A stretch of 38,026 nucleotides of DNA from an uncultured Blautia sp. (GTDB lineage Bacteria; Bacillota; Clostridia; Lachnospirales; Lachnospiraceae). Under the pieces are notes generated by a model. The model was not told the origin of the DNA and did not search any database. It saw only the letters and a program-made list of their open reading frames with translations. The translations under genes were made by a program, and so were the position numbers. The stretch lies in assembly GCF_937880195.1 (NCBI RefSeq), contig NZ_CALFLA010000095.1, positions 1 through 38,026 of the forward strand, given 5' to 3'. Within the stretch, counting starts at the first letter, position 1; each line of letters starts with the position of its first letter. This document shows, piece by piece, positions 1 through 19,812 of this stretch.

Positions 1-587
1 AACAGGCGGGATATACCATTCAGAAAAAGGTTTTAAATGCGTGGGATTTTGGTGTACCGCAGAAAAGAGAGAGACTAATCACTGTTGGAATTAGAAATGA
101 TTTAGTAGGAAAAGTTTCATTCTCATTTCCTAAAGAACATGATTATAAGCCTGTTTTAAGAGATGTTTTATTGGATTGCCCAGAAGGACCAGGAGTGCCA
201 TACGGGGAAAATAAAAGGAAAATATTTGAATTAGTTCCACCTGGAGGATATTGGAGAGACATCGATCCAGAGATTGCAAAAGCATATATGAAAAGTTGCT
301 GGGATATGGAAGGTGGAAGAACGGGAATTCTTAGGAGAATGAGCCTGGATGAACCGTCATTAACGGTATTGACTTCACCGTCTCAGAAGCAAACAGAAAG
401 ATGTCATCCATTGGAAGCAAGACCGTTTACGGTACGTGAGAATGCAAGATGTCAAACATTTCCAGATGAATGGCAATTTTGTGGAAGTGTTCAATCTCAG
501 TATAAACAGGTTGGAAATGCTGTTCCTGTCAACTTAGCATATGAAATTGGGTTGGAGATACATAAATCATTAGAGGGGGTAAAATAA
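1..587 (+). CDS. DNA (cytosine-5-)-methyltransferase, 3' part
   Basis: The reading frame is open from base 3 at the window edge to the TAA at 585-587, giving 194 visible residues; the 5' part, with the catalytic PC motif, lies outside. The visible part contains C5-methyltransferase motif VIII (FGVPQKRERL, near base 48-77), motif IX (RPFTVRENARCQTFPDEW) and motif X (QVGNAVPVNLAYEIG). It transfers a methyl group from SAM to C5 of cytosine in the recognition site and so protects self DNA. The target-recognition region between motifs VIII and IX is present but its specificity cannot be read directly. The stop codon directly abuts the ATG of the restriction enzyme gene, so the two form a type II restriction-modification operon. 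If the partner is Eco47II-like, the expected site is GGNCC; that is inference. Codon use is AT-rich, as in the two genes downstream. Confidence 0.93.
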   Translation, partial: QAGYTIQKKVLNAWDFGVPQKRERLITVGIRNDLVGKVSFSFPKEHDYKPVLRDVLLDCPEGPGVPYGENKRKIFELVPPGGYWRDIDPEIAKAYMKSCWDMEGGRTGILRRMSLDEPSLTVLTSPSQKQTERCHPLEARPFTVRENARCQTFPDEWQFCGSVQSQYKQVGNAVPVNLAYEIGLEIHKSLEGVK

Positions 588-1484
588 ATGGCGTGGAATT
601 TAGATTTTATATCAGAAGAGGATTTTAAGAAGCATGTGCGTGCAACGATTATGAAATATGGAGAAAAACTGGAATCGTATGATTTGAAGCGGTTCAATAG
701 TAACCTGATTGATCCGATCAAGCTGATTTTTGATAAATCGGTGTATCGTACAAGCTGGGAAGAAATTGTAAATAATGAAATTTTCCGGCAGAGAGATAAG
801 TCTAATAATAATGATATAGGATATTTTCATCAGAATATTTTTTCTTATTTCAAAGGCTGCGAAGTCCCGCAGGCAGGCTGGGATGTTATTTACAGAAATC
901 CAGATGGAATACAAATGCCAGATGGAGATATTGTACATACAATGTATGTGGAAATGAAGAACAAACACAATACTATGAATTCTGCATCTTCTGCAAAAAC
1001 ATATATAAAAATGCAAGGACAGATTCTGGAAGATGATGATTGTGCGTGTCTGTTGGTTGAAGCAATTGCAAAGAAATCACAGAATATAAAATGGTCAACA
1101 AAAGTTGATGGAAAAAATGTACAGCATAGATTGATTCGCCGTGTGAGCATGGATCAGTTTTATGCAATTCTCACTGGTGAAGAAGATGCATTTTACAAGA
1201 TGTGTATGGCATTACCGGAGGTAATCAATTCTGTTGTAAATGAAGAAGGTGGTGTTGAAGTACCACACGATACAGTTATTGATGAATTGAGAAAAGTGGC
1301 ATCATTGTATGGGGATGAAAATGGCGAGCTGTCTATGGCAATGGCTGTATATATGCTTGGATTCAATACGTATATGGGATTTGGTGATAAAATCCGTGGA
1401 AAATTGGGAGAAGATAAAGACGGAATGCTTAAGAGGATTTATGAGTATGTGAAGAAATTACAGAAATACATGTTCAAGGAGTAG
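588..1484 (+). CDS. Type II restriction endonuclease, Eco47II family
   Basis: This 298-residue protein starts with the ATG immediately after the methyltransferase stop, preceded by AGAGGGGG. The sequence resembles the Eco47II/Sau96I restriction endonuclease family: an N-terminal block ending in DPIKLIFDKSVY, then NNNDIGYFHQNIF, then a candidate PD-(D/E)XK nuclease core. That core has GWDVIY with Asp99, followed about 20 residues later by YVEMKNKHN with Glu122 and Lys124. It would cut unmethylated DNA at the site protected by the upstream enzyme; known family members cut GGNCC. The methyltransferase-first order fits safe establishment in a new host. The recognition site is inferred from the family, not seen. 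The base composition is AT-rich compared with the chromosome after 5205, consistent with transfer. Confidence 0.85.
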   Translation: MAWNLDFISEEDFKKHVRATIMKYGEKLESYDLKRFNSNLIDPIKLIFDKSVYRTSWEEIVNNEIFRQRDKSNNNDIGYFHQNIFSYFKGCEVPQAGWDVIYRNPDGIQMPDGDIVHTMYVEMKNKHNTMNSASSAKTYIKMQGQILEDDDCACLLVEAIAKKSQNIKWSTKVDGKNVQHRLIRRVSMDQFYAILTGEEDAFYKMCMALPEVINSVVNEEGGVEVPHDTVIDELRKVASLYGDENGELSMAMAVYMLGFNTYMGFGDKIRGKLGEDKDGMLKRIYEYVKKLQKYMFKE

Positions 1485-1524
1485 AATGTAATATAAAAAT
1501 CATTTCTACAAAAGAGGTATTTAG

Positions 1525-4500
1525 ATGAGTGATAAGACTGTTTATTCTTATATAAATGATATTGCACAGCGATTAAAAGAACCAAGAAAATATGGGGATG
1601 TTTCGCTAATGATTGGAGCTGGATTTTCAAAAAATGCACAGAGTAAAGGAAGGGCAAGTATACAACCACCAAATTGGAGCGAACTTGCTGAAAAAATGTA
1701 TGAGGAACTATATCCGGAACCATTAGAAGAACAAGAAAAAGAGGAATGGAATAGACAAAGGATTATAAAAACATCTGGGAAAAACGTCACAAAGCTGGCA
1801 GATGAATATATTGCTAATTTTGATAGAAATAAAATAAACAATTTGATAGAACAGTCCATTGCAGACGAAATGTTTGTTCCGGGAGAATTACATAAAAGAC
1901 TTTTAAAATTACATTGGTCAGATATTTTTACAACAAATTATGATACTCTTTTGGAGCAGACGGTAGATATGATTTATCGTGAGAATAACTATGAAATCAT
2001 ATATTCTCAAAATGATTTGCCAGGGAGTATAAAGCCACGGATAATCAAGTTGCACGGTAGTATTCCACAAGTAAAACCATATATAATAAGCGATGAAGAT
2101 TATAGAACATACCCAGATAAATATTCAGCATTAGTTAATACTGTACAGCAAGCGATGCTTGAAACTAGATTATGCTTACTTGGATTTTCCGGGGATGACC
2201 CCAATTTTCAAAGCTGGCTTGGTTGGTTACGAGACAATATGGGTGAATACTGTCCAATGATTTATTTGATTGGTTTATATGAAAAACTCAGTGCACCAGA
2301 GAGAAAACTGTTGGAAAATAAGGGGATTACTATAGTAGATATTTCTGGATTAGTATCTCGACAGGAAGAAAATCGACACTATCAGGCAATTTCAGAATTT
2401 GTTGGTTTATTAGAAAAAAATCAGAGTGAAAAAGATATTTATTTGGAAAGGCCATACCAGAATGTTGATATATTTTGGCAACCTAAGGAAGCGGAAAAAG
2501 AAGAATACTTTGAAAAGTTGAAAAACTATTCACATAAAGTTGAAAAGTTGATAGAGCCGTACATTTTACTCCCGGAAGAAAAAAGGGTTAAATATGCAAA
2601 TTATTTCTTAGAACATTTTAGTGTAGTGCTGAAATTGGTTCATAATCAGGAAAAAGTACCAGAGAAGCTAATTTCAACTATTATTAAAATACTAAGAAAA
2701 TGTTTGGTTGTTTTAGAAGATAAAAATGCTGAATACTTAGAAAAAGTAACAGAAAAGTTAATTGAGAAAAATTCACAAATAGAAACGTTATGTGAGATAT
2801 TATTGTATTTGGCAGAAATGTATAGAATCGATGGTAAAAAAGAGTTATATGATGCTTGCATGGAAAGATGTGAGGTATATTGTAATAAAATCCCATATTA
2901 TAAAAATGAATACCTTATTGAAAAAATGAAAAATCACATTTCATTGTTTGGTTACGAGGAAGCGAAACAGCTGATTGAAGAGATAGAAACACCATCATTT
3001 GAGTATAAAGTAAAAAAAGCAGCGTTGTATAAACAATTGTCAAAGAATGATATTGCAGACAAGATATTAAGCGAGTGTTCAGCGGAATTGGCGCAGATGA
3101 AGTTATCAGATGAAATATATGCTTCATATTTGGGATATCTAAATTTATGTTATAGAATTGGAAATTGGGAAATAAAGGAGGAATACGCTGACAATAAGTA
3201 TTATGATAATTCATATAACACAAGACGTATTATTGTTGAACAAAGGGAAAAGCTGGAGCAAGTTTTCTTTGAAAAAGATAGAAAAAAAGAAGAAAGAATA
3301 GTGCCGTTTAGTCTTAATTCCAATAAGAGTGTTACAGTAGTTTATTCAGGAGAAGATACTTGTTACAAAAATTCGTTTGTTTTTATTCTTGGAATAGATA
3401 GATTGTGCTTGCCGATATTTTCGGATCAAGCAAGATTGCTTCCACGTGTATATGATGAGATAATGAATTCGAGTAAATATGCTTATTGGAAAATGTCATT
3501 AGCTGTTAGGACAAATCAAGAAAAAGTTATCAATCAAATTTTCACACGGAAAACCCTTTTAAATATAGATGATTTAGAAAAACAATCTCTTTTTGAAAAA
3601 TTGATTGAAATTGTAAAGATGTATGCTGTAGAAGATAGTTATGATAGAAAAAAATATTTTGTATCAGTGAAGAACATCTTAAGCATATTATCGCGGTTGG
3701 CAGTATTTATAGAAGATGCAAATATAATTGCATTTTTGGAAATATTATGCAGATTTAGTCAAAAGGAAGATCCTTTTATGGTTAGAGATATAAAAAAGAT
3801 TCTGCAGATAATTTCAACCAGATTTAATGGAAATATTGCAAATACTTGTCAGAATATTATTTTTTCTGAGTTTGATGCACAATATCATTTGGCTAGTTAT
3901 TTTAATGATGTATCATTTGAAATATATGAAGAAGATGTGGAAATATTTTATGAAAAAGCACTTCGTGCGAGTCTAAGTGAAAATATATGTGAAAGAGATA
4001 ATGGATTATCTTGCTTATTAGTATTGTGGAATAATAAACCATTAGAAAAATATCGAGACGATATTATAACAGCCTTTTGGAAGAATGATAAAGATACCCT
4101 GCCGACAACAGAATTATACTATCCATTTATTTGGGAGGGATTACCGTATCCAGAATCAGTTGATTTTTCAAAATTATATTATACGTATTTGATGAATACA
4201 GAATATGTGAAAAGTGTAACACCAACAGGGCGTGTGGGAAATAATTCATATGGAAGTGTCCGAGATTATTTTAGCTTTTTTTATTCGACATCGAAAATTT
4301 CCCTGAGAAAATGTAGTGAGGTGATTTTAAATAAAGAACTTGCAAGCACCATTTTGACTCGCTCATATGATTTCATAATCCATGAAAAAAGCTTATTAAA
4401 AGATAATTTTATGGGAGAAAAAGATGAATGTGAAAATAAGTTTCTAGTAATTGAGGAACTTGTTGCACTTATCTATTGTGAAGCTATACAAAATCAATTG

Positions 4501-5076
4501 ATTACAGAGGTGTACCCACTGATTGAAAAAATTAAGACAGCATTATCGGATTGCCGAATTAGTACCATTGCAATCGATATACTAGAAATGACTGAGAAAA
4601 ATGAACTTGAAGAATGTGTTGATATGTTTGAAAATATTATATTGACGAAAAATAAAAAACTTTATTCAAGTGTATTTACAGGAATACAATGTTTGGTATT
4701 TTTAAAAGAAAATTGCATTCAAAATGTATCGTTTGAAAAATTTTTTAGCTCAATAAAATATTTAGATATAGAGTATTCAAAAACATTGTGGATTCATTTG
4801 ACACCATTGCTCAGGCAACCTTTTTTTGCTAAGGAAGAAACTCAGAGATATATTACAGTATCTATCAGTAAGTGTATAGACATATATGAAGATTTAGCAA
4901 GTCAAGGTGAACGGTATTATTTGGATGGCTTATACAATTGTGTGGAGGCATTACATCAGTATTATAAAAGTGTTAAGACAACTGGAACAGAAGAAACAGA
5001 CGAATTAAAACAATGTGTTGATAAGGTCAAGAAAATAAAAAATTATGAGATAGCAAATATTTGGTCTTACGAATAG
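1525..5076 (+). CDS. Large SIR2-domain protein, probable anti-phage NADase
   Basis: This 1183-residue protein starts with the ATG after AGAGGT, 40 bases behind the restriction gene. Residues about 25-290 form a SIR2-type NAD-binding/NADase domain: GAGFS at 31-35, FTTNYDTLL with Asn138 and Asp140, KLHGS with the expected catalytic His177, and LLGFSGDDPNF at 218-228. The remaining 900 or so residues are rich in Lys, Glu, Ile and Leu and look like long alpha-helical repeats of TPR/HEAT character. I see no Walker A motif, so it is not a STAND (Avs-type) ATPase. The layout matches defence-associated sirtuins (DSR1/DSR2 type), in which the C-terminal part senses a phage protein and the SIR2 domain then depletes NAD+. 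The location behind a restriction-modification pair at the end of an integrated element supports a defence role. Which DSR subgroup it belongs to is uncertain. Confidence 0.8.
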   Translation: MSDKTVYSYINDIAQRLKEPRKYGDVSLMIGAGFSKNAQSKGRASIQPPNWSELAEKMYEELYPEPLEEQEKEEWNRQRIIKTSGKNVTKLADEYIANFDRNKINNLIEQSIADEMFVPGELHKRLLKLHWSDIFTTNYDTLLEQTVDMIYRENNYEIIYSQNDLPGSIKPRIIKLHGSIPQVKPYIISDEDYRTYPDKYSALVNTVQQAMLETRLCLLGFSGDDPNFQSWLGWLRDNMGEYCPMIYLIGLYEKLSAPERKLLENKGITIVDISGLVSRQEENRHYQAISEFVGLLEKNQSEKDIYLERPYQNVDIFWQPKEAEKEEYFEKLKNYSHKVEKLIEPYILLPEEKRVKYANYFLEHFSVVLKLVHNQEKVPEKLISTIIKILRKCLVVLEDKNAEYLEKVTEKLIEKNSQIETLCEILLYLAEMYRIDGKKELYDACMERCEVYCNKIPYYKNEYLIEKMKNHISLFGYEEAKQLIEEIETPSFEYKVKKAALYKQLSKNDIADKILSECSAELAQMKLSDEIYASYLGYLNLCYRIGNWEIKEEYADNKYYDNSYNTRRIIVEQREKLEQVFFEKDRKKEERIVPFSLNSNKSVTVVYSGEDTCYKNSFVFILGIDRLCLPIFSDQARLLPRVYDEIMNSSKYAYWKMSLAVRTNQEKVINQIFTRKTLLNIDDLEKQSLFEKLIEIVKMYAVEDSYDRKKYFVSVKNILSILSRLAVFIEDANIIAFLEILCRFSQKEDPFMVRDIKKILQIISTRFNGNIANTCQNIIFSEFDAQYHLASYFNDVSFEIYEEDVEIFYEKALRASLSENICERDNGLSCLLVLWNNKPLEKYRDDIITAFWKNDKDTLPTTELYYPFIWEGLPYPESVDFSKLYYTYLMNTEYVKSVTPTGRVGNNSYGSVRDYFSFFYSTSKISLRKCSEVILNKELASTILTRSYDFIIHEKSLLKDNFMGEKDECENKFLVIEELVALIYCEAIQNQLITEVYPLIEKIKTALSDCRISTIAIDILEMTEKNELEECVDMFENIILTKNKKLYSSVFTGIQCLVFLKENCIQNVSFEKFFSSIKYLDIEYSKTLWIHLTPLLRQPFFAKEETQRYITVSISKCIDIYEDLASQGERYYLDGLYNCVEALHQYYKSVKTTGTEETDELKQCVDKVKKIKNYEIANIWSYE

Positions 5077-5116
5077 CATGATATGATAACACTATGATAA
5101 CAAAATCCCCAAAAAC

Positions 5117-5195
5117 CACACGGACAAAACGGAAAATCCGGATTTTCCCACACGAATCAAACGAAAAATCACTATTTGCACACCGTAACACACCG
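5117..5195 (+). repeat. Short CACACG-type direct repeats at the element end
   Basis: Four near-identical heptamers lie between the SIR2 gene and the tuf remnant: CACACGG at 5117, CACACGA at 5149, and CACACCG at 5179 and 5189. Repeats of this kind next to an attachment core are typical of accessory binding sites for a tyrosine recombinase or its directionality factor. That role is inferred from position only. Confidence 0.4.
5131..5148. repeat. Perfect 18-bp palindrome
   Basis: GGAAAATCCGGATTTTCC is identical to its own reverse complement. It lies 55 bases after the SIR2 stop and about 57 bases before the tuf remnant, with no T-tract behind it, so it is not an ordinary terminator. It could be a binding site for a dimeric protein at the end of the element, or a compact transcription-blocking stem. 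Confidence 0.75.
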
Positions 5196-5204
5196 GTCTG
5201 ATAT

Positions 5205-5258
5205 CGTGAAGGTGGACGTACTGTAGGATCAGGCCGTGTTGCTTCTATCATCGAGTAA
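5205..5258 (+). pseudogene. tuf: 3' end of tuf (EF-Tu) left at an integration junction
   Basis: Read in frame from 5205, the sequence gives REGGRTVGSGRVASIIE and a TAA stop at 5256-5258. This is the universal C-terminus of elongation factor Tu. The preceding codons are TGA TAT, whereas an intact gene would read Phe-Ala-Ile-Arg here, so the match ends exactly at 5205. Everything before is AT-rich foreign-looking DNA; everything after is host-like and includes a terminator. The simplest reading is an attachment site (attR): an element integrated into the 3' end of tuf, carried a copy of those codons to restore the gene at its other end, and left this fragment. The exact core lies somewhere within 5205-5258. 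The piece is too short to encode anything. Confidence 0.88.
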
Positions 5259-5326
5259 TCACTGATTAATAGATAAATTATATAGAGTGTTATCGTAAGA
5301 TAACTTTGTGTCCAAGCGTAAGATTA

Positions 5327-5356
5327 CCCCGGAACCTTTTGGTTTCCGGGGTTTTT
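5327..5356 (+). terminator. Rho-independent terminator, originally of tuf
   Basis: Stem CCCCGGAACC (5327-5336), loop TTTT, arm GGTTTCCGGGG with one bulged T (5341-5351), then five Ts. It stands 68 bases behind the tuf stop and is most simply the original tuf terminator. It now ends transcription coming out of the element. A second inverted repeat, GTTATC-GTAA-GATAAC, lies at 5289-5304 in the same spacer. Confidence 0.88.
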
Positions 5357-5390
5357 CTGTTGCATGGAAAAAATTTTCCCTCTGATTCCA

Positions 5391-5417
5391 GAACCTAATC
5401 CCCCCTTCCTGCATCTA
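5391..5417 (+). promoter_or_regulatory. Candidate ECF-type promoter of the first sigma operon
   Basis: GAACC (5391-5395) and CATCTA (5412-5417) are separated by 16 bases, resembling the GAAC-N16-CGTC pattern of ECF sigma promoters. A similar GCGTCTAAT lies upstream of the second sigma gene (near 7174-7182) but without a clear GAAC element. Autoregulation is plausible, but this is a weak visual match. The rest of 5357-5485 shows nothing else. Confidence 0.35.
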
Positions 5418-5485
5418 ATTAGTGTAAAATATAAGAGAGACAAACGCGCGTAACCCTCCGGCCGAGCAGAAGGAGACAACCAACT

Positions 5486-6007
5486 ATGACAAAAGATGTA
5501 TTTATCAGAGAGATACGGAAATCAGAAGCCATGCTGTACCATGTGGCAAAGTCGATTCTGAAAAATGATTCAGACTGCGGGGATGCAGTACAGGAAACGC
5601 TTCTGAAAGCCTATGAAAAATTGCATACTTTGAAACAGGATCAGTTTTTTCGTACCTGGATCACAAGAATACTGATCAATGAATGTAATGGAATTCTCAG
5701 AAAGAAAAAGCATATGATTTCTTATGAGGAATATATGCAGGAAACCAGGGTCTTTGAAGAGAAAAAATATACGCATTTATATATGGCGATTTTGGAACTG
5801 CCGGAAGAACTGAGGATTTTGGTAACGCTGTATTATATAGAAGGTTTTTCTCAAAAAGAGATTGCAGAAATCTTAGGTATGCAGGAAGGAACCATCAAAA
5901 GTCGGCTGTCACGGGCAAGAAGACTTCTAAGGGAGATCCTTACAGAAGCAGATGCTTGCTCACGTTCCAAGGAAACAAAAGGCGGAACAAGGCTGCAGTT
6001 ACGGTAA
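5486..6007 (+). CDS. ECF-family RNA polymerase sigma factor (first copy)
   Basis: This 173-residue sigma factor starts with ATG after AGAAGGAGA. Region 2 includes NDSDCGDAVQETLLKAYEKL and FRTWITRILINECNGILRKKK, typical of sigma region 2 binding the core polymerase and the -10 element. Region 4 includes LPEELRILVTLYYIEGFSQKEIAEIL followed by EGTIKSRLSRARRLLRE, the helix-turn-helix that reads the -35 element. The length is normal for a minimal ECF factor. The next gene encodes a membrane-anchored anti-sigma factor 14 bases downstream, so it should be held inactive at the membrane until a cell-envelope signal arrives. It is paralogous to the sigma factor at 7234. The signal is unknown. Confidence is high for the family and low for a specific regulon. 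Confidence 0.93.
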   Translation: MTKDVFIREIRKSEAMLYHVAKSILKNDSDCGDAVQETLLKAYEKLHTLKQDQFFRTWITRILINECNGILRKKKHMISYEEYMQETRVFEEKKYTHLYMAILELPEELRILVTLYYIEGFSQKEIAEILGMQEGTIKSRLSRARRLLREILTEADACSRSKETKGGTRLQLR

Positions 6008-6021
6008 AAGGAGGAAGAATC

Positions 6022-7128
6022 ATGCAGGAGAATAACTGGAAAAAAGCGGCGCCGGAAGTGCCGGAAGACTTTCATATGAAATTTGAAGAAACATTAAAGC
6101 AGATTGAGGATCAGAAAATTATTTCCTATAAGAAAAGAAGCAAAAAAAGAATGATCCAAATACTGGCTGCAGCAGCCATAGCATGCAGCCTTACAGTTAC
6201 TACCATTGTGGCAGGAGGTCTTTTTCAGTGGAATGATGTATTAAAGAAAAGGCTGAACCCGTCAAAGGAACAGCAGGAATCTCTGGCAGATCAGGGCTAT
6301 ATTAAAGGAATCGGCCAGTCCCAGACACAGAATGGAGTGACTATCACGCTTGTAAATACAGTTCAGGATCAGAATCTTCTGTATGCACTATTTAAAATAG
6401 AAACAGACGACAGTATTTCTATGGATGATACCACATCCTTTGAGGATGGTCTGAATATTAAAATTGACGGAACCTCCACATATGACATGGATGAACTGGG
6501 AAGCTATGGGGCAGGGGCCGGACTGGCGTATCCTGAGGGAATATCGGATATCTCCCCACACTTGCAGTATTATGAAGTTTCTCTGTCATATAATGGCGAT
6601 TATGACCTCAGTGGTAAAACTGTTCAGATGGAGCTGAAGAACCTGACCCAGGGAGGGGATAAAACAGAGGATGGAGAAGTAGTGGCGGAAGGTGTCTGGA
6701 AATTTGAATGGACGCTGGATGAGATCCGATCCATGACGAAGCTGGATGTAAACCGGAAGTGTGATTTTGGAGGATATGAGATCACAGTAGATGCCATGGA
6801 GCTTTCTCCTTTGAAATATACTCTTTATATGGATTATGAGGAGGCCATGAAGGTGTATGGGGATGAAAGAAACCGGTTTGAATATAATGGTGATGATCCC
6901 GGCATGGATCTTACAGGAAGAACACATATAGACCAGGTTCGCTATGAAGACGGTACGGTTGTAAAAATGGATTATGAATCCGGCGGCGGCATTGGCGGCG
7001 GCGAAGAAAAATGGGATGAGGAAAAAGGGATTGTAAAAATTTCTGGAGGATTTGCGCAGGTGATCGATGTAGACAAACTGGAGGCAGTACATTTTGGAAA
7101 CGTAGATTCCTGGCTTACAGTAAGATAG
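6022..7128 (+). CDS. Membrane-bound anti-sigma factor, DUF4179 type
   Basis: The protein has 368 residues. I choose the ATG at 6022 because AAAGGAGGAAG sits just before it; an in-frame ATG at 5956 lies inside the sigma gene with no ribosome site. Residues 1-43 are a cytoplasmic, charged segment expected to bind the sigma factor. Residues 45-66 form a transmembrane helix (IQILAAAAIACSLTVTTIVA). The rest is an extracytoplasmic beta-rich region of the DUF4179 kind found in clostridial anti-sigma proteins (GVTITLVNTVQDQNLLYALF). It contains a glycine-rich stretch, ESGGGIGGGEEKW, near residue 325. It probably senses an envelope signal and releases the sigma factor. There is no zinc-binding HxxxCxxC motif in the N-terminus, so it is not a ZAS-type anti-sigma. 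Confidence 0.8.
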   Translation: MQENNWKKAAPEVPEDFHMKFEETLKQIEDQKIISYKKRSKKRMIQILAAAAIACSLTVTTIVAGGLFQWNDVLKKRLNPSKEQQESLADQGYIKGIGQSQTQNGVTITLVNTVQDQNLLYALFKIETDDSISMDDTTSFEDGLNIKIDGTSTYDMDELGSYGAGAGLAYPEGISDISPHLQYYEVSLSYNGDYDLSGKTVQMELKNLTQGGDKTEDGEVVAEGVWKFEWTLDEIRSMTKLDVNRKCDFGGYEITVDAMELSPLKYTLYMDYEEAMKVYGDERNRFEYNGDDPGMDLTGRTHIDQVRYEDGTVVKMDYESGGGIGGGEEKWDEEKGIVKISGGFAQVIDVDKLEAVHFGNVDSWLTVR

Positions 7129-7203
7129 AAACAGAAAAAGGTACTTTCATTTGCAAATCAGGGGATATTTCTGAATCAGCAGCGTCTAATATACAGAAAC
7201 ACA

Positions 7204-7217
7204 TTACCGGCCGGTAA
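7204..7217. repeat. Perfect 14-bp palindrome upstream of second sigma gene
   Basis: TTACCGGCCGGTAA equals its reverse complement and runs into the purine-rich ribosome binding site AAGGAAAGGAG of the TTG-started sigma gene. It could be an operator or affect translation initiation. The first sigma gene has a related but imperfect CTCCGGCCGAG at the same relative place. Confidence 0.6.
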
Positions 7218-7233
7218 GGAAAGGAGCAGAGAA

Positions 7234-7719
7234 TTGACAAAAGAAAATCTTGGCAGGCTGATTCTGGAATCAGAACGCCAAATGTACCTGACTGCAAAAA
7301 CAATTCTGCACAACGATCAGGACTGTGGAGATGCGATTCAGGAAGCTATTGTAAAGGCGTTTCAGAAAATAGATACGTTAAGACAGGAGAAGTATGCAAA
7401 AACCTGGCTGATGCGGATACTGATCAACGAGTGTTACAGCCTGCTCCGCCGGGAAAGCCGATATGTTTCCATGGAGGAAATAAAGGAATTTTCATCTGGG
7501 GAAGCAGAGGAGAAAAGGGATTACAGTGATCTCTATTCAGCTGTGAACTCTCTAAAGGAGGAACTTCGGATTCCGGTGATCCTGTATTATGGAGAGGATT
7601 TCAGTATCAGGGAAATCGCACAGATTCTGGAAATTACAGAAGAGGCGGTACAGAAACGGCTTTTTCGGGCGCGGATGCAGCTAAGGGACAGACTTACGCA
7701 AATGGAGGTACCCATATGA
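7234..7719 (+). CDS. ECF-family RNA polymerase sigma factor (second copy)
   Basis: This 161-residue factor uses a TTG start at 7234, placed 7 bases after AAGGAAAGGAG; no ATG fits as well. Region 2 (NDQDCGDAIQEAIVKAFQKI, KTWLMRILINECYSLLRRE) and region 4 (LKEELRIPVILYYGEDFSIREIAQIL, EEAVQKRLFRARMQLRD) align closely with the sigma factor at 5486, so the two pairs arose by duplication. Its stop overlaps the ATG of the next gene (ATGA), indicating translational coupling with its anti-sigma partner. A non-ATG start plus the upstream palindrome may keep synthesis low. The regulon and inducing signal are not visible. Confidence 0.92.
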   Translation: MTKENLGRLILESERQMYLTAKTILHNDQDCGDAIQEAIVKAFQKIDTLRQEKYAKTWLMRILINECYSLLRRESRYVSMEEIKEFSSGEAEEKRDYSDLYSAVNSLKEELRIPVILYYGEDFSIREIAQILEITEEAVQKRLFRARMQLRDRLTQMEVPI

Positions 7720-9191
7720 GACTGGAAGAGATCAAAAAAGAGCTGCCTGAGACTCCTGATTTTATCCAAAGGATGATCGTGGAGGAGGTAGAAAACCAAC
7801 TGGGGAAAAAAGGCACGGCAGTCAGCATAAGAACTCCCCGAAAAAAAAGAAAATGGAGCCCTGCTCGTGTGGCTGCTGTGGCAGCTCTGTGCGCTCTTGG
7901 ATTTTCCACAGTGGCTTACGCAGGATATCAGTTATACACCATGTATGTGGAAAAACAGGGGAAATATGGAATTTCTGCGGGGATAACTATGGAAAAAGCC
8001 TCCGCTTCCCTTATAGTTCCAGATGAAATCCCACAGGTGAAGATCCAGGCCGGGTATATTCCAGAAGGAATGGAATGGGTAGATGACGCTTCTGGAAAAA
8101 CAAGGCTTTTTTACTCAGAAACACCGGATCAGGGAGGAATTTCCATAGGAACGGTACTTCTGGACAGTGATGACACGGATCAGATTCTTAGGGAAACAGG
8201 AGTAATAGAAAGTGAGAAAAGAACTTTTGGCAGCAGAGAGGGAATTTACCTGAGATTTCAGGATCTGGAGCAGGATAAAACTTTTAACCAGGTGATCTAT
8301 CTTCTGTGCCCGGAGGAATACCAGGTAGTCATAATGAATATCGGGGATGATGTGACAAAAGAAGATGCGATAAAATTCGCAGAAAACCTTTCCTTGGTGA
8401 AAACAGGTGAAATGGAGAAAACAGAAAACCTGTATTCCTGGAGTGAATACGTTTCACCGGAAACGGAAGAGGCGGAGCCTTTGGAGACTTCCATAGCAGA
8501 GAACGAGCTTTCTGTAGTAAAACCGGGGGAATGGCTGGAACAGAGAGTAACAGGTGAAACAGAAAACGGAGAATATCTGGAACTGGATGAGATTCAGATG
8601 AGGGTAGATTCCGTACAGGTTTCTGACAATCTCAGTCTTCTGAATGGCTCAGTGCTTCCGGACGGATGGAAGGAAGCACTGGGAAGCGATGGAAAACTTG
8701 CAGAAAATAACCTGTCTTATATAAAAAGAGGAGATGGCGTGGAAACTCTGGATCAGGTGGTAAAAACGGAAACTATAGATCAGAAGCTGCTCTATGTGAC
8801 TGTAACTTACAAAAATCCTACAGAAACACCAATTTATCATATGCTGTATCATGGAAGTCTGATGCTGATAGATAAAAAGGACGGAATGTATTCGGTCAGA
8901 GATGTTGAAGCTGAAAATTTCCAGAAAGACGGCGTGGAATACGATTTTGTAACAGGAGACGGCGTGGCCTCCAGCACAGATATGACCTACTACAGTATTC
9001 ATGACGACTACGGAAACGGCGGAAATTATATCCCTGTTCTGAATCCGGGAGAAGAGCTGCAGGTGGATATGGCATGGATCATAAACGAACCGGATCTTTC
9101 AAAGGCGTTTCTGAATCTTTCCGGCGAAGGCGCTTGCTGGGAATTTACAGAGACGGTCAGGGAAACAGGGCTGGTGGATACCCGACAATAG
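7716..9191 (+). CDS. Membrane-bound anti-sigma factor with large sensor region
   Basis: The 491-residue protein starts at the ATG overlapping the sigma stop by four bases. Residues 1-50 are cytoplasmic and basic near the membrane (PRKKRKW), and residues 51-72 form one transmembrane helix. The outside part has two modules. The first, about 105-230, begins VKIQAGYIPEGMEW and resembles the DUF4367 type common in Firmicutes anti-sigma proteins. The second, about 270-480, is beta-rich and resembles DUF4352/Ig-like domains (LLYVTVTYKNPTETPIYHM). It is longer than its neighbour at 6022 and differs in sequence outside the membrane, so the two pairs probably read different signals. It presumably sequesters the sigma factor of 7234. 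The domain names are by resemblance. Confidence 0.75.
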   Translation: MRLEEIKKELPETPDFIQRMIVEEVENQLGKKGTAVSIRTPRKKRKWSPARVAAVAALCALGFSTVAYAGYQLYTMYVEKQGKYGISAGITMEKASASLIVPDEIPQVKIQAGYIPEGMEWVDDASGKTRLFYSETPDQGGISIGTVLLDSDDTDQILRETGVIESEKRTFGSREGIYLRFQDLEQDKTFNQVIYLLCPEEYQVVIMNIGDDVTKEDAIKFAENLSLVKTGEMEKTENLYSWSEYVSPETEEAEPLETSIAENELSVVKPGEWLEQRVTGETENGEYLELDEIQMRVDSVQVSDNLSLLNGSVLPDGWKEALGSDGKLAENNLSYIKRGDGVETLDQVVKTETIDQKLLYVTVTYKNPTETPIYHMLYHGSLMLIDKKDGMYSVRDVEAENFQKDGVEYDFVTGDGVASSTDMTYYSIHDDYGNGGNYIPVLNPGEELQVDMAWIINEPDLSKAFLNLSGEGACWEFTETVRETGLVDTRQ

Positions 9192-9227
9192 AAAAATACG
9201 ATTTTGGAGAGTTTTTCCGAGAAAAGC

Positions 9228-9258
9228 TTGACTTTATACTTACTACAACCCTTATAAT
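9228..9258 (+). promoter_or_regulatory. Promoter with 19-bp spacer, MerR type
   Basis: TTGACT (9228-9233) and TATAAT (9253-9258) are both near-consensus but separated by 19 bases instead of 17. Such over-long spacers are the hallmark of promoters that MerR-family activators twist into shape. It is 81 bases before the MerR gene at 9340, so autoregulation is likely. Confidence 0.75.
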
Positions 9259-9339
9259 GAAGCCATAAAATCACAGTGATTGAAAAATGGCGCTATCAGA
9301 AACACAAAGATCAGGCGAAAAAGGAGTGGAGTAAGTATT

Positions 9340-10245
9340 ATGAATATTAAGGAAGCGGAAAATCTCAGCGGTATTTCCGGTCAGAATATCCGCTATTATG
9401 AAAAACAGGGACTGATCAGTCCAAAAAGGAATCGGATCAATTCCTACAGGGAATATGGAGAAGAGGATATCCGGATATTAAAGACCATTCGTATGCTGAG
9501 GATGCTGGATATGCCTATTGAGCAGATACGACTGATTCTTAAGGGAGATTTGTCTATGGGAGATGCCTTAGATATGCAGAAAGTGAGGCTGGAAGTACAG
9601 GCAAAGAAACTGCAGTCCGCCATTAGTTTTTGTGAGCAGATGGGTAAAGAGAAAAGAACCCTGAAGGAACTGGATATAGACAGCTGCCTGGAACAAATGG
9701 AAAAGAATACTGCCAGAGACGGATATTTTACCCGTTGGGTGGAGGATTACAAAAAGATTGCACGGGAAGAGGCGCAGAGGGTCTTTACCTTTATACCGGA
9801 TGATGCGGTGACAAATCCCCGGGAGTTTACAAATGCGCTTCTGGCATATGCAAAAGAAAAGAATCTGAATCTGGTGATTACAAAAGAAGGAATGTATCCG
9901 GAATTTGAGATTGACGGAGTGGAGTACAGGGCAGAACGAAATTATGGACGGGCCTATCGGGTACCGGTAGCCGTGATCCATTGTGAAATGATCCATCCGG
10001 AATTGTATGAAACAGAGATGGAGCCGAAACGCCGCCGTTGGGTAAAGATTTTGTATCATTCTCTTCCTGCACTGGGATTCATTTTTCTGATTTTTCTTAT
10101 GATGGGCGGTACAGGAGGACTTTCTCTTTCAGAGTTTTTTACCACAAAAGAAGGCGTGATCCTTTTGATCCTGATCGTTATTCTGGGAATCTCAGAATTC
10201 ATGCATTTTTATCTTCTTTACCGAAATATGGACGGACCGAGATAA
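9340..10245 (+). CDS. MerR-family regulator with C-terminal membrane anchor
   Basis: The 301-residue protein starts at the ATG at 9340 behind AAAAAGGAGTGGAG; an earlier in-frame ATG at 9280 has no ribosome site. Residues 1-70 are a MerR winged helix (MNIKEAENLSGISGQNIRYY, EKQGLISPKRNRINSYREY), followed by a coiled dimerisation helix to about 120. The middle (about 130-230) is a ligand- or partner-binding region that I do not recognise. The end has two hydrophobic helices, about 237-256 and 272-294. Most MerR proteins are soluble and end after the coiled coil, so membrane attachment suggests it senses membrane or envelope state. This would match the two sigma/anti-sigma pairs just before it. 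The promoter upstream has the long MerR-type spacer. Confidence 0.88.
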   Translation: MNIKEAENLSGISGQNIRYYEKQGLISPKRNRINSYREYGEEDIRILKTIRMLRMLDMPIEQIRLILKGDLSMGDALDMQKVRLEVQAKKLQSAISFCEQMGKEKRTLKELDIDSCLEQMEKNTARDGYFTRWVEDYKKIAREEAQRVFTFIPDDAVTNPREFTNALLAYAKEKNLNLVITKEGMYPEFEIDGVEYRAERNYGRAYRVPVAVIHCEMIHPELYETEMEPKRRRWVKILYHSLPALGFIFLIFLMMGGTGGLSLSEFFTTKEGVILLILIVILGISEFMHFYLLYRNMDGPR

Positions 10246-10327
10246 CGTGGATGTATCGTAAAATTTGAGGAAGGACAGAGTCCTGTGTAAAAGGGCAGTA
10301 TCAGAAACAGAAGACATGAGAATGTCA

Positions 10328-10362
10328 AAAGGCTGTTGGTAAACGGATTACCGACAGCCTTT
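10328..10362. terminator. Convergent hairpin between MerR and XRE genes
   Basis: AAAGGCTGTTGGTAA (10328-10342) pairs with TTACCGACAGCCTTT (10348-10362) around a 5-base loop with one mismatch. It separates two converging genes and includes the last codons and stop of the minus-strand XRE gene. The T-tracts are short on both sides, so termination may be moderate. Confidence 0.7.
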
Positions 10363-11073
10363 GTTGTCTACAAGGAGCATATTTAATTTTTTCCAACGGC
10401 GAAGTTCTTTAGCGGTGAAAAATAAATGCTGCTTCAGTTCTTCTGTAGGCTCCTGAGGGGTCAGAGTTACCAGACATCTAAAAGCGCAGGGCATATAATC
10501 GGAGCTGGAAATGCCGCAGAGAAGTCCCTCTGTAAAATCACGAAGCTCCAGAGGATTGAAAATATAAAGCAGGTCTTCTTCCAGACTGTTGTACTGGTTT
10601 ACGAAGGAAAAACGGATCAGCATATCACTGTAGACCACTTTGCCTGTATAGTAGATTTCACTGCTCCGTCCGGTAGGAGTTACGGCGCTGATGGACAGAG
10701 AGGCTTCATACTGACTGCCGTCCTCGCTTTGATGAATATGTATCACTCCGTCTTTCAGGCGCTTATACCTTCCATCGTAAAAATAGAAATAGAGCTTACG
10801 GGCCTGATAAAAAGGGCTTTTTATTTTATGTTCAGAGATGGGGGCTGTGAAAGGCCGTTCCGGCTGGTAATCCATAATCTGTGTTACATCAACGTGAAGG
10901 GCGGCTGCAATGTCGTAGAGGGTTTCTACATCCACAGTAATCTCCCCGGTTTCATATTTGCTGAGAGTTGCGCGGCTTTTATGAATAAGGTCTGCCAGCT
11001 GCTGAAGCGTCATCCCCTGATTTTTTCTGTGATTGCGGATACGTCCGCCAATATGTTTACTGATCTGGCTCAA
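10348..11073 (-). CDS. XRE-family transcriptional regulator
   Basis: The 241-residue protein starts at TTG (11071-11073), with AAGGTG placed 8 bases upstream. Residues about 8-63 form a classical helix-turn-helix (IRNHRKNQGMTLQQLADLIH, KSRATLSKYETGEITVDVET). The C-terminal 170 residues form an unrecognised domain with KSPFYQARKLYFYFYDGRYK and a beta-rich core that could bind a small ligand. It is divergent from the sodium symporter at 11377 and is its likely regulator. Its own promoter carries two copies of a 20-bp direct repeat, one over the -10 region, which fits autorepression. Confidence 0.88.
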   Translation of the reverse strand: MSQISKHIGGRIRNHRKNQGMTLQQLADLIHKSRATLSKYETGEITVDVETLYDIAAALHVDVTQIMDYQPERPFTAPISEHKIKSPFYQARKLYFYFYDGRYKRLKDGVIHIHQSEDGSQYEASLSISAVTPTGRSSEIYYTGKVVYSDMLIRFSFVNQYNSLEEDLLYIFNPLELRDFTEGLLCGISSSDYMPCAFRCLVTLTPQEPTEELKQHLFFTAKELRRWKKLNMLLVDNKGCR

Positions 11074-11156
11074 TTTGATTCACCTTGTTTCGTAAGAATA
11101 TACACTGTCTGCGTTTTAACAGTTAAAAAATCTATAATATGCAGAAATGCATCTAA

Positions 11157-11186
11157 ATTCTATCATAAAGAAACTTTTTACGTCAA
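11157..11186 (-). promoter_or_regulatory. Promoter of the XRE gene
   Basis: On the minus strand, TTGACG (plus coordinates 11181-11186) and TAGAAT (11157-11162) are 18 bases apart. They lie 84 bases upstream of the TTG start. The -10 and part of the spacer are covered by one copy of the direct repeat. Confidence 0.65.
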
Positions 11187-11207
11187 GATTCTATTATAAA
11201 GAAACTT
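11157..11207. repeat. Direct-repeat operator in the divergent intergenic region
   Basis: ATTCTATCATAAAGAAACTT (11157-11176) recurs with one difference as ATTCTATTATAAAGAAACTT (11188-11207). Copies start 31 bases apart, about three helical turns, so two proteins would bind the same face of the DNA. One copy covers the -10 of the XRE promoter and the other lies just behind its -35 and close to the symporter promoter. These are likely sites for the XRE protein. Confidence 0.7.
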
Positions 11208-11215
11208 ATGGAAAT

Positions 11216-11244
11216 TTGCCCATTTTACTGTAATTGCCTATAAT
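11216..11244 (+). promoter_or_regulatory. Promoter of the sodium symporter gene
   Basis: TTGCCC (11216-11221), a 17-base spacer, and TATAAT (11239-11244). It is 9 bases away from the second operator repeat, so the XRE protein could affect it. The 130-base leader that follows contains only short inverted repeats and no recognised riboswitch. Confidence 0.65.
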
Positions 11245-11376
11245 GGGCTGGTGCGGCAGATCTTAATAGTCTGTAGAAAGTGGTAAGCATATCTTTCTGT
11301 ACAGGAATTACAGATCGCTGTCTCTGATTCCTCAGAATAGAGAAATCAAGTATTACAGTAAAGTGAGGACATATTT

Positions 11377-12768
11377 ATGGAAAAGAAAGCAGGAAGCTTC
11401 AGCGGATCCCTGGGATTTGTGCTGGCGGCAGCGGGAAGCGCTGTAGGAGTTGGCAACATATGGCGTTTTCCTTATCTGGCAGCTCAGGATGGAGGCGGAC
11501 TTTTTATTCTTGTATATCTGGTTCTGGTACTGACATTTGGCTTTACGCTTCTTACAACGGACATTGCTATTGGACGAAGAACAAAAAAGAATGCGTTGTA
11601 TGCTTTTGGTGCGATTTCTCCAAAGTGGAATTTTCTCGGAAAACTGACATTTCTTGTTCCGGCTCTGATCATGACATACTATTCTGTGATTGGCGGATGG
11701 GTTACCAAATATGCGGTGACATATCTGAGCGGAAAGAGCAGTGCAGCAGCTGAAGACTCATATTTTACTGACTTTATTACAGCTCCTGTCGCTCCTATTG
11801 TATTTATGCTTGTTTTTCTTGCAATTACAGCATTTGTAGTATATGCCGGTGTGGATAAAGGAATTGAGCGTTTCTCAAGACTGGTAATGCCCGGGCTTCT
11901 TATTATGATTATCTGTATTGCAGTTTTTTCGCTGACACTGAAGCATACAGATGAAAGCGGAAACGTACGCACAGGAATTCAGGGTCTGGCGGTTTATCTT
12001 ATTCCCAATTTTGAAGGTCTTACTTTCTCAAAGTTTCTGAAGATTCTTCTGGATGCAATGAGCCAGCTGTTTTTCTCATTAAGTGTGTCCATGGGAATTA
12101 TGATCACCTATGGTTCTTATGTAAAAAAAGATGTGGATCTGAACAAATCTATCCGTCAGATAGAATTTTTTGATACGGGTGTAGCTCTGCTGGCAGGTAT
12201 GATGATCATTCCGGCAGTATATGTATTTTCCGGTACAGAAGGCATGGCTTCCGGCCCAAGTCTGATGTTTGTATCTCTCCCTAAGGTATTCCATGCAATG
12301 GGAAAGGCAGGGATTATCGTAGGACTTGCATTTTTTATCATGGTTGCTTTTGCAGCTCTGACCTCCTGCGTATCAATCATGGAAACACTGGTGGCAAGCT
12401 GCATGACACTGTTCAAAACAACAAGGAAAAAAATGAGTCTGATCATCGGAGTGATTTCTGCAGCAGCAGCCATAGTGATATGCCTTGGCTACAATGTATT
12501 TTACTTTGAACTTGCACTTCCAAACGGACAGACGGCACAGCTTCTGGATGTTATGGACTATATCAGCAATTCCTTCCTGATGCCTTTGATTTCTTTTCTT
12601 ACCTGTATTTTTGTGGGATGGGTTATCAAGCCAAAATGGATACAGGAAGAAATGGAATCCAGCGGTCACGTATTTCAGCGTAAAAAAATGTATTCCTTTA
12701 TGATCCGCTATGTGGCGCCTGTGATCATGGCAGTACTTTTCCTGCAGTCCACAGGACTTCTGAAATAA
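11377..12768 (+). CDS. NSS-family sodium-dependent transporter
   Basis: This 463-residue membrane protein belongs to the neurotransmitter:sodium symporter family (LeuT/MhsT fold). The N-terminus has the family signature GFVLAAAGSAVGVGNIWRFP with the unwound TM1 glycines, followed by hydrophobic helices; TM6 lies near MSQLFFSLSVSMGIMITYGS. Bacterial members have 11 or 12 helices and usually import an amino acid with sodium; the length fits the shorter bacterial 11-helix type (TnaT/MhsT-like). The substrate cannot be read. It starts with ATG after GTGAGGAC, has its own promoter, and ends at a strong terminator. The divergent XRE regulator probably controls it. Confidence 0.92.
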   Translation: MEKKAGSFSGSLGFVLAAAGSAVGVGNIWRFPYLAAQDGGGLFILVYLVLVLTFGFTLLTTDIAIGRRTKKNALYAFGAISPKWNFLGKLTFLVPALIMTYYSVIGGWVTKYAVTYLSGKSSAAAEDSYFTDFITAPVAPIVFMLVFLAITAFVVYAGVDKGIERFSRLVMPGLLIMIICIAVFSLTLKHTDESGNVRTGIQGLAVYLIPNFEGLTFSKFLKILLDAMSQLFFSLSVSMGIMITYGSYVKKDVDLNKSIRQIEFFDTGVALLAGMMIIPAVYVFSGTEGMASGPSLMFVSLPKVFHAMGKAGIIVGLAFFIMVAFAALTSCVSIMETLVASCMTLFKTTRKKMSLIIGVISAAAAIVICLGYNVFYFELALPNGQTAQLLDVMDYISNSFLMPLISFLTCIFVGWVIKPKWIQEEMESSGHVFQRKKMYSFMIRYVAPVIMAVLFLQSTGLLK

Positions 12769-18402: not shown

Positions 18403-18663
18403 ATGTTTACAATCTTAAATTCCGAAAGTCTGTGGATTGGAACAGACATGAAGCGGTTTAATCAGCTTCGGGATATTCTGGAGCGCGAAGGCATCCCATA
18501 TCGACACAAAGTAAAGAACCGGATGGGACAATGGAGCGGAAGCGGAACTATGAGAGGAAGAATGGGAAGCCTAGGAACGCCTGCAGGCAGTACATATGAA
18601 TATGAAATTATGGTATATAAAAAAGACTGGGAAAAAGCAAAACAAGTTACAGGAATAGGATGA
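18403..18663 (+). CDS. Small conserved protein, DUF2007-like
   Basis: The product has 86 residues. The start at ATG 18403 fits CGGGAGG 8 bases upstream better than the GTG at 18394. It begins MFTILNSESLWIGTDMKRFN and continues with QLRDILEREGIPYRHKVKN, a pattern like small ferredoxin-fold signal-transducing proteins of the DUF2007 type. It ends with a YEIMVYKKDWEKA strand-helix unit. The middle is Gly/Met/Arg-rich (GQWSGSGTMRGRMGSLG) and probably disordered. It is 27 bases behind the exporter pair and before the terminator, so it is co-transcribed with them. I cannot name a function. Confidence 0.7.
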   Translation: MFTILNSESLWIGTDMKRFNQLRDILEREGIPYRHKVKNRMGQWSGSGTMRGRMGSLGTPAGSTYEYEIMVYKKDWEKAKQVTGIG

Positions 18664-18682
18664 ACTGGTAGGTTTGCATTGA

Positions 18683-18738
18683 TACCCCGGGTGCTATTAT
18701 TTGTAGTTTTACAAATTCGGCATCCGGGGATTTCTTTT
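18683..18738 (+). terminator. Composite terminator of the exporter operon
   Basis: Outer stem CCCCGGGTGC (18685-18694) pairs with GCATCCGGGG (18720-18729), and an inner perfect stem ATTTGTA-GTTT-TACAAAT lies in the loop. It is followed by ATTTCTTTT. Confidence 0.88.
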
Positions 18739-18750
18739 ATAAAACAGAAT

Positions 18751-18806
18751 TTTTACAAAGATTTTACCCAACCAGGATTTTGGTTTTAACTTAGTCTCCC
18801 TATAAT
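18751..18806 (+). promoter_or_regulatory. Pho box and pst operon promoter
   Basis: TTTTACA (18751), TTTTACC (18762) and TTTTAAC (18784) lie at 11- and 22-base intervals, the helical phasing of PhoB/PhoP direct repeats. A perfect TATAAT (18801-18806) follows 10 bases after the last repeat, and there is no good -35, as expected for a promoter that needs the response regulator. Phosphate starvation should therefore switch on the operon. Confidence 0.75.
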
Positions 18807-18863
18807 GACACTTGTCAATGAGGAAAACAAATAAAGAATTTTATAAAAAAGAGGAGACTTATC

Positions 18864-19724
18864 ATGAAGAAAAAAATCGTAGGAATCTTAGCAGCGGCAG
18901 TAATCGGAACAACAGCATTTGCAACAGTTGCAAGTGCAGCAAGCGGAACAATCAACGTAATCTCCCGTGAGGACGGTTCTGGTACAAGAGGCGCTTTTAT
19001 TGAGCTGTTCGGCATTCAGGAAGAGAAAGACGGAGAAAAAGTTGATATGACAACAGAGGATGCAAGTATTACAAACAGCACTTCTGTAATGATGACAACA
19101 GTTGCTGGTGATGAGAATGCTATCGGTTACATTTCTCTCGGCTCTTTAAACGATACTGTAAAAGCAGTTAAGATTGACGGAGCAGAAGCTACTGCAGAAA
19201 ACGTTGCAGACAAGAGCTACAAAGTATCCCGTCCTTTTAACATTGTAACAGGTGAGAAGGCAAGCGAAGCAGCACAGGATTTCGTAAGCTATATCATGAG
19301 CGCAGACGGACAGCAGATCATTGAGGACAACGGTTACATCAAAGCAGACGCAGAAGCAGGCGCTTATGAGGCAACTGAGGCAGAGGGCAAGGTTGTTGTA
19401 GCTGGTTCCTCTTCCGTATCTCCTGTAATGGAAAAATTGAAAGAGGCTTATGAGGCAGTAAACAAGAACGTAACTGTTGAAGTACAGCAGAGTGATTCCA
19501 CAACAGGCGTAACTTCTGCAGCAGAAGGAATCTGCGATATTGGAATGGCTTCCCGTGAACTGAAAGATGAAGAAAAAGAGCTTGGCCTTACAGCTACAGT
19601 AATCGCACAGGACGGAATTGCAGTAGTTGTTAATACATCCAACGAGACTGAGGATCTTACAAGCGATCAGGTAAAAGCAATCTTTACTGGTGAAACAACT
19701 GAGTGGGAAGATCTTGCGAAATAA
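18864..19724 (+). CDS. pstS: Phosphate-binding protein PstS, circularly permuted
   Basis: The 286-residue protein starts at ATG after AGAGGAGAC. Residues 1-27 are a signal peptide ending ASA, cleaved by signal peptidase I; there is no lipobox cysteine. The mature part has PstS motifs in the wrong order. Residues 33-47 (ISREDGSGTRGAFIE) and the GYISLGSLNDTVKAVKI and FVSYIMSADGQQIIEDNGY segments belong to the second half of a normal PstS. Residues 177-286 begin VVVAGSSSVSPVMEKL and contain IGMASRELKDEE and VKAIFTGETTEWEDL, normally the first half. All phosphate-site segments (AGSSSVSP, SREDGSGTRG) are kept, so binding should be intact. It is the first gene of the pst operon behind a Pho box. 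It delivers phosphate to PstCA. Confidence 0.93.
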   Translation: MKKKIVGILAAAVIGTTAFATVASAASGTINVISREDGSGTRGAFIELFGIQEEKDGEKVDMTTEDASITNSTSVMMTTVAGDENAIGYISLGSLNDTVKAVKIDGAEATAENVADKSYKVSRPFNIVTGEKASEAAQDFVSYIMSADGQQIIEDNGYIKADAEAGAYEATEAEGKVVVAGSSSVSPVMEKLKEAYEAVNKNVTVEVQQSDSTTGVTSAAEGICDIGMASRELKDEEKELGLTATVIAQDGIAVVVNTSNETEDLTSDQVKAIFTGETTEWEDLAK

Positions 19725-19754
19725 GATCAGCACAACATGAAAGAACGTAAAGGG

Positions 19755-19780
19755 GCCCGGCTTACCGGGCTTCTGTTCTG
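19755..19780 (+). terminator. Attenuating hairpin between pstS and pstC
   Basis: GCCCGG-CTTA-CCGGGC (19755-19770) is followed by a mixed TTCTGTTCTG. A stable but imperfect terminator here would let much more binding protein than permease be made, a common arrangement in pst operons. Confidence 0.65.
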
Positions 19781-19812
19781 TAATCATGAAGTCAGAGAGG
19801 TAGATATCTTTT

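Follow-up and report, generated by a model that had tools for sequence, protein, structure and literature searches.

An integrative element end at the 3' end of tuf in an uncultured Blautia, and related tuf-associated elements in the Lachnospiraceae

Here we report that an isolated copy of the last codons of tuf, the EF-Tu gene, at positions 5205-5258 of the window (the whole 38,026-nucleotide stretch of uncultured Blautia DNA that was analysed) constitutes an integrative element's right attachment site, in support of what a sequence-only reading of the same DNA had proposed for tuf. We consider it very probable that the window holds the right end of a member of a Lachnospiraceae family of elements that integrate at the 3' end of tuf by the route set out below. 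All window features described here lie on the forward strand (+).

The orphan tail consists of 17 in-frame codons of the EF-Tu C-terminus and the stop codon (5205-5258, from CGT to TAA, encoding REGGRTVGSGRVASIIE and stop), and forms the left part of the att repeat. It begins sharply, at a codon edge, at position 5205, and the window's list of open reading frames contains no tuf body 5' of that point. The tail is followed by a hairpin in the tuf 3' UTR (5289-5304, from folding) and by the tuf terminator, a hairpin with a T-run (5327-5356), with which the att repeat common to hosts and elements ends; the folding of 5256-5362 gives z = -4.0 against 200 shuffles. When the 3' UTR (5259-5326) is compared with that of the relatives, whole blocks of the hairpin differ between copies and the pairing seems, by eye, to be kept; in the window and the relatives alike, the conserved stretch TGTCCAA.CGTAAGA comes after it.

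On the other side of the tail lies the cargo of the element: a C5 cytosine DNA methyltransferase cut by the window edge (3-587; Pfam DNA_methylase, 1.6e-33), an Eco47II-type restriction endonuclease (588-1484; Pfam RE_Eco47II, 1.4e-93) and a DSR2-type SIR2 anti-phage protein of 1183 aa (1525-5076). The adjoining cytosine methylase and Eco47II endonuclease identify a type II restriction-modification system of the Eco47II type, and their counterparts in the tuf elements of G027 and G035 are 98-99% identical for the methyltransferase and 98% for the endonuclease. The DSR2 assignment comes from a PADLOC Dsr2 match (6.2e-135) across residues 3-1130 of 1183, together with a Pfam SIR2_2 domain. GC content per kilobase is 29-37% in 1-5000, 39% in 5001-6000 and 41-47% from 6001 to 32000. 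The sequence-only reading had described this arrangement correctly: the last codons of tuf stand alone, the match ends abruptly at 5205 (the DNA to its left being a recurring 121-bp element end and not tuf), AT-rich DNA with restriction-modification and SIR2 genes (3-5076) precedes the tail, and a terminator follows it.

To the right of the terminator is the host side, with two ECF sigma/anti-sigma pairs and then a MerR regulator. The first sigma gene (5486-6007) is 81% identical to genes beside orphan tails in L001 and L002, and the second (7234-7719) is 69% identical to the gene directly after an intact tuf in G043, where counterparts of the second anti-sigma factor (7716-9191; 52% identical) and of the MerR-type regulator (9340-10245; 72%) come next. 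The G043 locus is uninterrupted, running from tuf through the terminator, sigma and anti-sigma to MerR, and its intact tuf matches the tail and terminator of the window at 90-94%. An uninterrupted order of tuf, terminator and sigma gene had been expected in relatives; G043 provides it with respect to the second sigma gene, but the first sigma/anti-sigma pair of the window is missing there. Relatives of the first anti-sigma gene at 90-95% occur only in G001 and G002, with matches at 43-60% in nine other genomes. Since the two closest relatives, G001 and G002, are both occupied as well, the search yielded no empty site that has the window's first downstream gene beside it.

These two genomes were reached by way of the sigma gene; one is a Lachnospiraceae MAG (L001, G001), the other a Blautia MAG (L002, G002), and in both L001 and L002 the corresponding position is taken by an orphan tuf tail, shortened in L001 to the last codons. 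At that L001 junction (9300-9643), the tuf tail is abutted at its tenth codon by a sequence also present near right ends in G026 and G045, which we take to resemble the end of an insertion sequence; the arm pair described below and the element end are missing there. G002 combines the same 121-bp element end with other cargo (a methylase, a GmrSD/NsnA-like protein and a HEPN protein), and in G001 a complete fusA-tuf stands before genes for a repressor, a tyrosine integrase, an AAA_25 protein, a MobV relaxase and a transporter, after which the tuf tail appears a second time. The earlier suggestion that a complete tuf and an integrase should lie upstream of the repeated last codons is thus borne out in relatives, with a tyrosine integrase.

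Orphan tails are common in the nearest, Blautia-like genus, that of G002. A query with tail and terminator matched 43 of its 64 genomes; the regions of 33 of these 43 were read (G044 through a 3-kb locus only), and full-length orphan tails were found in 17 of the 64. The tuf tail of G039 is partial, and G035, G045 and G046 have three tails each, with two elements in a row between them. The typical unit in relatives starts with tuf, continues with integrase, Rep and MobV, and closes with the orphan tail. Could the arrangement be an assembly artefact, with contigs misjoined inside the repeated tail? The contigs of G001 do break at tail repeats; yet G002 and the IMG/VR contig L163 join the same right end to tail, UTR and terminator, and long contigs of G046, G063, G011 and G016 carry tuf, element and orphan tail in one unbroken piece, so that we find such a misjoin hardly credible.

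Site-specific integration is further indicated by the ends of the elements. Elements and hosts share a repeat of ~145-157 bp, from CGTGAAGG through the 17 codons, the 3' UTR and the terminator; its starting point does not vary among the full-length orphan copies, and the 17 codons and stop are kept in 31 of 32 orphan copies. Relatives have these direct repeats as attL and attR at one site, as an integrative and mobilizable element (IME) should, and the window has the right copy only. Direct repeats at both ends had therefore been rightly predicted, although at ~145-157 bases they go beyond the 20-54 that were anticipated.

The DNA to the left of the repeat is conserved too. The window's right end (5084-5204) is 78-92% identical across 120-122 bp to those of G002, G027, L003, L129, L125, G035 and G040, and 84% identical across 98 bp to that of G046; only 23 bp are shared with G026 and G045. 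A right end of the window's type, followed by a tuf tail, is also found in L163, where phage tail, amidase and two serine recombinase-like genes (recognised by eye, 624-11522) lie to its left, perhaps as a prophage inside a tuf element. At 5082-5102 the window carries TATGATAACA twice, 11 bases apart, and the repeat-pair comparison revealed a short word repeated in this way, at -120 to -131 from the tail, in 30 of the 32 orphan tails, all except L121 and L124. Among random 58-nt windows drawn from this DNA, 1.9% contain such a pair, and it occurs in 0-4 of the 32 at each of the other spacings from 7 to 20, which were added as a control after spacing 11 had been sought first; the 32 right ends are related to one another, with about six words in all. 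The comparison of the tail sequences themselves covers full tails away from contig ends, leaving aside partial ones (G039, L001) and those near an end, including the G001 orphan (L009:18026), which also has a repeat pair.

Each word goes with one integrase: GGTGCC with IntG001a, TGATAAC with IntG001b and TGATAC(T) with IntL003. On the integrase side, a left-end pair of the matching word follows the stop codon at a distance of 175-206 bases; this holds for six of six elements of each integrase kind. Since all three integrases have an arm-binding domain, we infer that the repeat pairs are candidate integrase arm sites. L003 (MT839393.1, filed as Bacteriophage sp.) has at 76-354 a TGATAAC right end, a tuf tail and an IntL003 left end, and looks like the junction between two different tuf elements; the attP of a circular element was discarded as an explanation of this record, the repeat pairs of its two ends being of different integrase types.

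The repeat, the pairs at a fixed distance and the integrase loci of relatives uphold the earlier proposal that the 3' end of tuf contains a site-specific attachment site. That the tail is left over from a tuf duplication, or from an inversion or deletion without site-specific integration, is by comparison a very remote prospect: one orphan tail alone would look the same, and other work describes inversions between copies of the EF-Tu gene (in the accessible part of PMC3072379), but full-length orphan copies agree on where the repeat begins, the pairs keep a fixed distance, and integrase genes lie between the tuf ends.

The window's pair is of the TGATAAC type, the kind found at both ends of IntG001b elements, and would point to an integrase of the IntG001b type, whether present in cis or since lost, because L129, L125 and G035 combine IntG001b with TGATAAC right ends; we infer the integrase here because the left part of the element lies outside the window. 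It is quite possible, if short of probable, that the element is by now a decayed and immobile remnant which has lost its integrase, left end and relaxase and kept defence cargo between two tuf ends. Elements of this appearance exist: no integrase is present among the listed open reading frames of G040 (methyltransferases, AlwI, GmrSD) or of the second G027 element (Vsr, methylase, Eco47II, nuclease), the three reference integrases were not found in the second G046 element, and the left repeat pair after the tail was not seen in G040 or G046. Against this, G035 has the same methylase-Eco47II pair in an element with IntG001b, VapE and MobV, and the window's right-end type accompanies IntG001b in L129 and L125.

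The link between these integrases and tuf was also examined across the family. The integrase query matched 134 of 397 family genomes at 1e-60, and among the matches listed there are 30 loci; in 23 of them the integrase is 52% or more identical to IntL003 (a count that excludes one further 55% match, G091:C70). Three of the 23 end at a contig edge, and the 20 that can be placed are all at tuf: 19 share their stretch with tuf, at ~1 to 10.3 kb (tuf in some of these being truncated where the stretch ends), and one adjoins an orphan tail. The weakest case is L092/L113, where 10.3 kb and a further integrase separate the integrase from tuf and a tail is absent. At the seven loci with at most 50% identity to IntL003, no tail was present in the stretches read, which for six of them extend ~1.5 kb or less per side. 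In an unrooted tree of 38 integrases, a branch with support of 99/88 has on one side the 20 tuf loci with the three reference and three edge integrases; on its opposite side are the seven loci at or below 50% and two integrases that stand reversed just after tuf, in G057 and L113. Domain searches identify Phage_integrase, SAM-like and arm-binding domains in the integrases of relatives, which thus have the integrase of their own that is expected of an IME. A search of a phylum sample with IntG001a at 1e-110 gave 0 of 398 genomes; this sample had no positive control and shows little.

The two reversed integrases (L075 of G057, 4853-5884, and L113, 5341-6372) are 41-42% identical to IntL003 and lie directly after the tuf stop codon. 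In L076 (G039), a very distant integrase (23%; 18411-19856) adjoins a tuf-end copy of 31 bases and the terminator that belongs to it. On account of these integrases, from another clade and from further still, it appears that the tuf end was adopted on more than one occasion, one integrase clade being the main user.

What integration does to the host gene can be seen in G182, whose tuf ends ..VATIIE and whose orphan tail encodes ..VATLID, with nine bases differing. Since each of the six remaining genomes in its genus (G853-G858) has a tuf ending -LID, -LLD or -VLD (G857 has an additional copy ending -VIE), the orphan tail is most likely the displaced native ending of the host, the new ending having come from the element, and integration in G182 apparently swaps the ending of EF-Tu. 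Judging from the LID codons, the crossover falls to the left of repeat base 42 and, since the first difference is at base 6, could even coincide with the repeat's left edge, although the element letters between are uncertain. G064 and G182, different hosts, have an identical repeat and element start. Among IntG001b elements, the exact tail is common to five of six (L111 has a different one) and the terminator hairpin to all six, as is the UTR with few changes. UTR, and sometimes terminator, differ among near-identical IntG001a elements (G018, L126, G001/G005, G003) and among IntL003 elements. These differences, together with the L111 tail, suggest that other crossovers or homologous recombination occur as well, and recombination between repeats may explain the UTR mosaics.

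We propose the following route. The integrase would recombine the element's copy of the repeat with that of the host, with a crossover near the left edge, so that the host tuf would gain the codons, UTR and terminator of the element and stay complete. The native ending would be pushed to the far end of the element, which in the window would be the orphan tail at 5205, with the restriction-modification system and DSR2 as the cargo carried in. Because the restored tuf would again be a target, further elements could insert in front and strings would form. Transfer between cells would be expected to use a MobV relaxase and a helper conjugative system.

A MobV relaxase occurs in many elements of relatives (Mob_Pre, 9.1e-14 and 1.9e-16), and for this reason the tuf element looks like an IME. 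It is in our judgement very unlikely that we are dealing with a phage or a phage satellite and not with an element mobilised by conjugation, although MT839393.1, one of the matches, is filed as phage, a 29-base piece of the tail is present in two IMG/VR contigs, in one of them beside phage tail genes, and VapE-like genes occur in tuf elements. A scan of 2.9 million viral contigs with the three integrases returned none, none and two records, MT839393.1 fits a two-element junction, the elements carry a MobV relaxase (Mob_Pre), and no capsid or other structural, packaging or hijacking genes were recognised by eye in the listed open reading frames of the elements. No circular form of an element was found in the viral collection, and a search of plasmid records gave no match.

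Defence genes were located in the elements of the window, G002, G027, G035, G040, G003 and G223 (G003 and G223 by Pfam only), and include Eco47II, AlwI, EcoO109I and NgoBV restriction genes, Vsr, GmrSD, DSR2, NucC-like and ATPase genes. The HMM scan of cargo was limited to elements picked by eye as defence-like and so yields no defence rate. Many other tuf elements carry regulators, transporters or enzymes (by eye), and the term defence element consequently applies to the window's case and not to the whole family. The idea that tuf is an under-described hotspot for defence islands stands in that the target is missing from the open-access literature searched, but not in its emphasis, defence being one kind of cargo.

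It is already well established that elements occupy the 3' ends of housekeeping genes, leaving the product intact and accreting in tandem, according to the accessible parts of PMC4701971 and PMC5704250, and tuf is apparently a new target. Among the matches listed in the open-access literature, a scope outside which most subscription papers and supplements fall, tuf was not found as an integration target. The word tuf is absent from the available portions of eight papers on elements, recombinases and islands (PMC6907783, PMC5704250, PMC12904643, PMC11706625, PMC10121019, PMC4701971, PMC12884075 and PMC8138268). In PMC3072379, PMC12382657 and PMC9366087, as far as their available text goes, EF-Tu appears as a recombining repeat or as an entry in a list of virulence factors and not as an integration site.

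These findings provide a precise address, with a target, candidate arm sites and integrases, at which gut Lachnospiraceae gather anti-phage and other genes, and this address can be used to list cargo and to search for site-specific integration tools in bacteria that are hard to handle. That the ending of an essential and universal gene is replaced by mobile DNA is also relevant to the use of tuf as a marker gene. A bolder proposal, which we put forward as a long shot, is that the tuf end serves as a landing strip throughout the Lachnospiraceae, where one dedicated integrase clade and two unlike integrases beside tuf would build strings, so that every insertion would overwrite the final codons as well as the UTR and terminator of a gene whose product is among the most abundant proteins in the cell; the swap itself could then be selective, through EF-Tu expression or agents that act on EF-Tu, beyond simple repair of the target.

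SCC in staphylococci sits at rlmH, at the end of a conserved gene, and forms composite strings and recombinase-less remnants with restriction cargo, using serine recombinases (ccr). The tuf elements resemble it in being at the end of a conserved gene, in their strings, in stretches without an integrase and in their restriction cargo, and differ from it in their tyrosine integrases with an arm-binding domain.

In the E. coli defence-island hotspots, as in the tuf elements, fixed chromosomal sites gather mobile elements with anti-phage cargo; the terms 'tuf', 'EF-Tu' and 'elongation factor' are absent from the text of that study as available to us (PMC10121019), which sets the tuf site apart. 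SGI1 at thdF, in the accessible part of PMC5704250, is an IME at a 3' end and is capable of tandem arrays, but differs from the tuf elements in host and target, and the strings at tuf are made of unlike elements. Tandem accretion is described for IMEs in the same accessible text, and streptococcal ICEs and IMEs integrate by a tyrosine integrase at the 3' ends of rplL, rpsI, rpmG, lysS and guaA with the product little or not changed, according to the part of PMC4701971 at hand. Judged against what is available of these two papers (PMC4701971, PMC5704250), the tuf elements share with the streptococcal ones the tyrosine integrase, the 3' end of a conserved gene and accretion, and depart from them in targeting tuf, in their Lachnospiraceae hosts and in a repeat that takes in the terminator.
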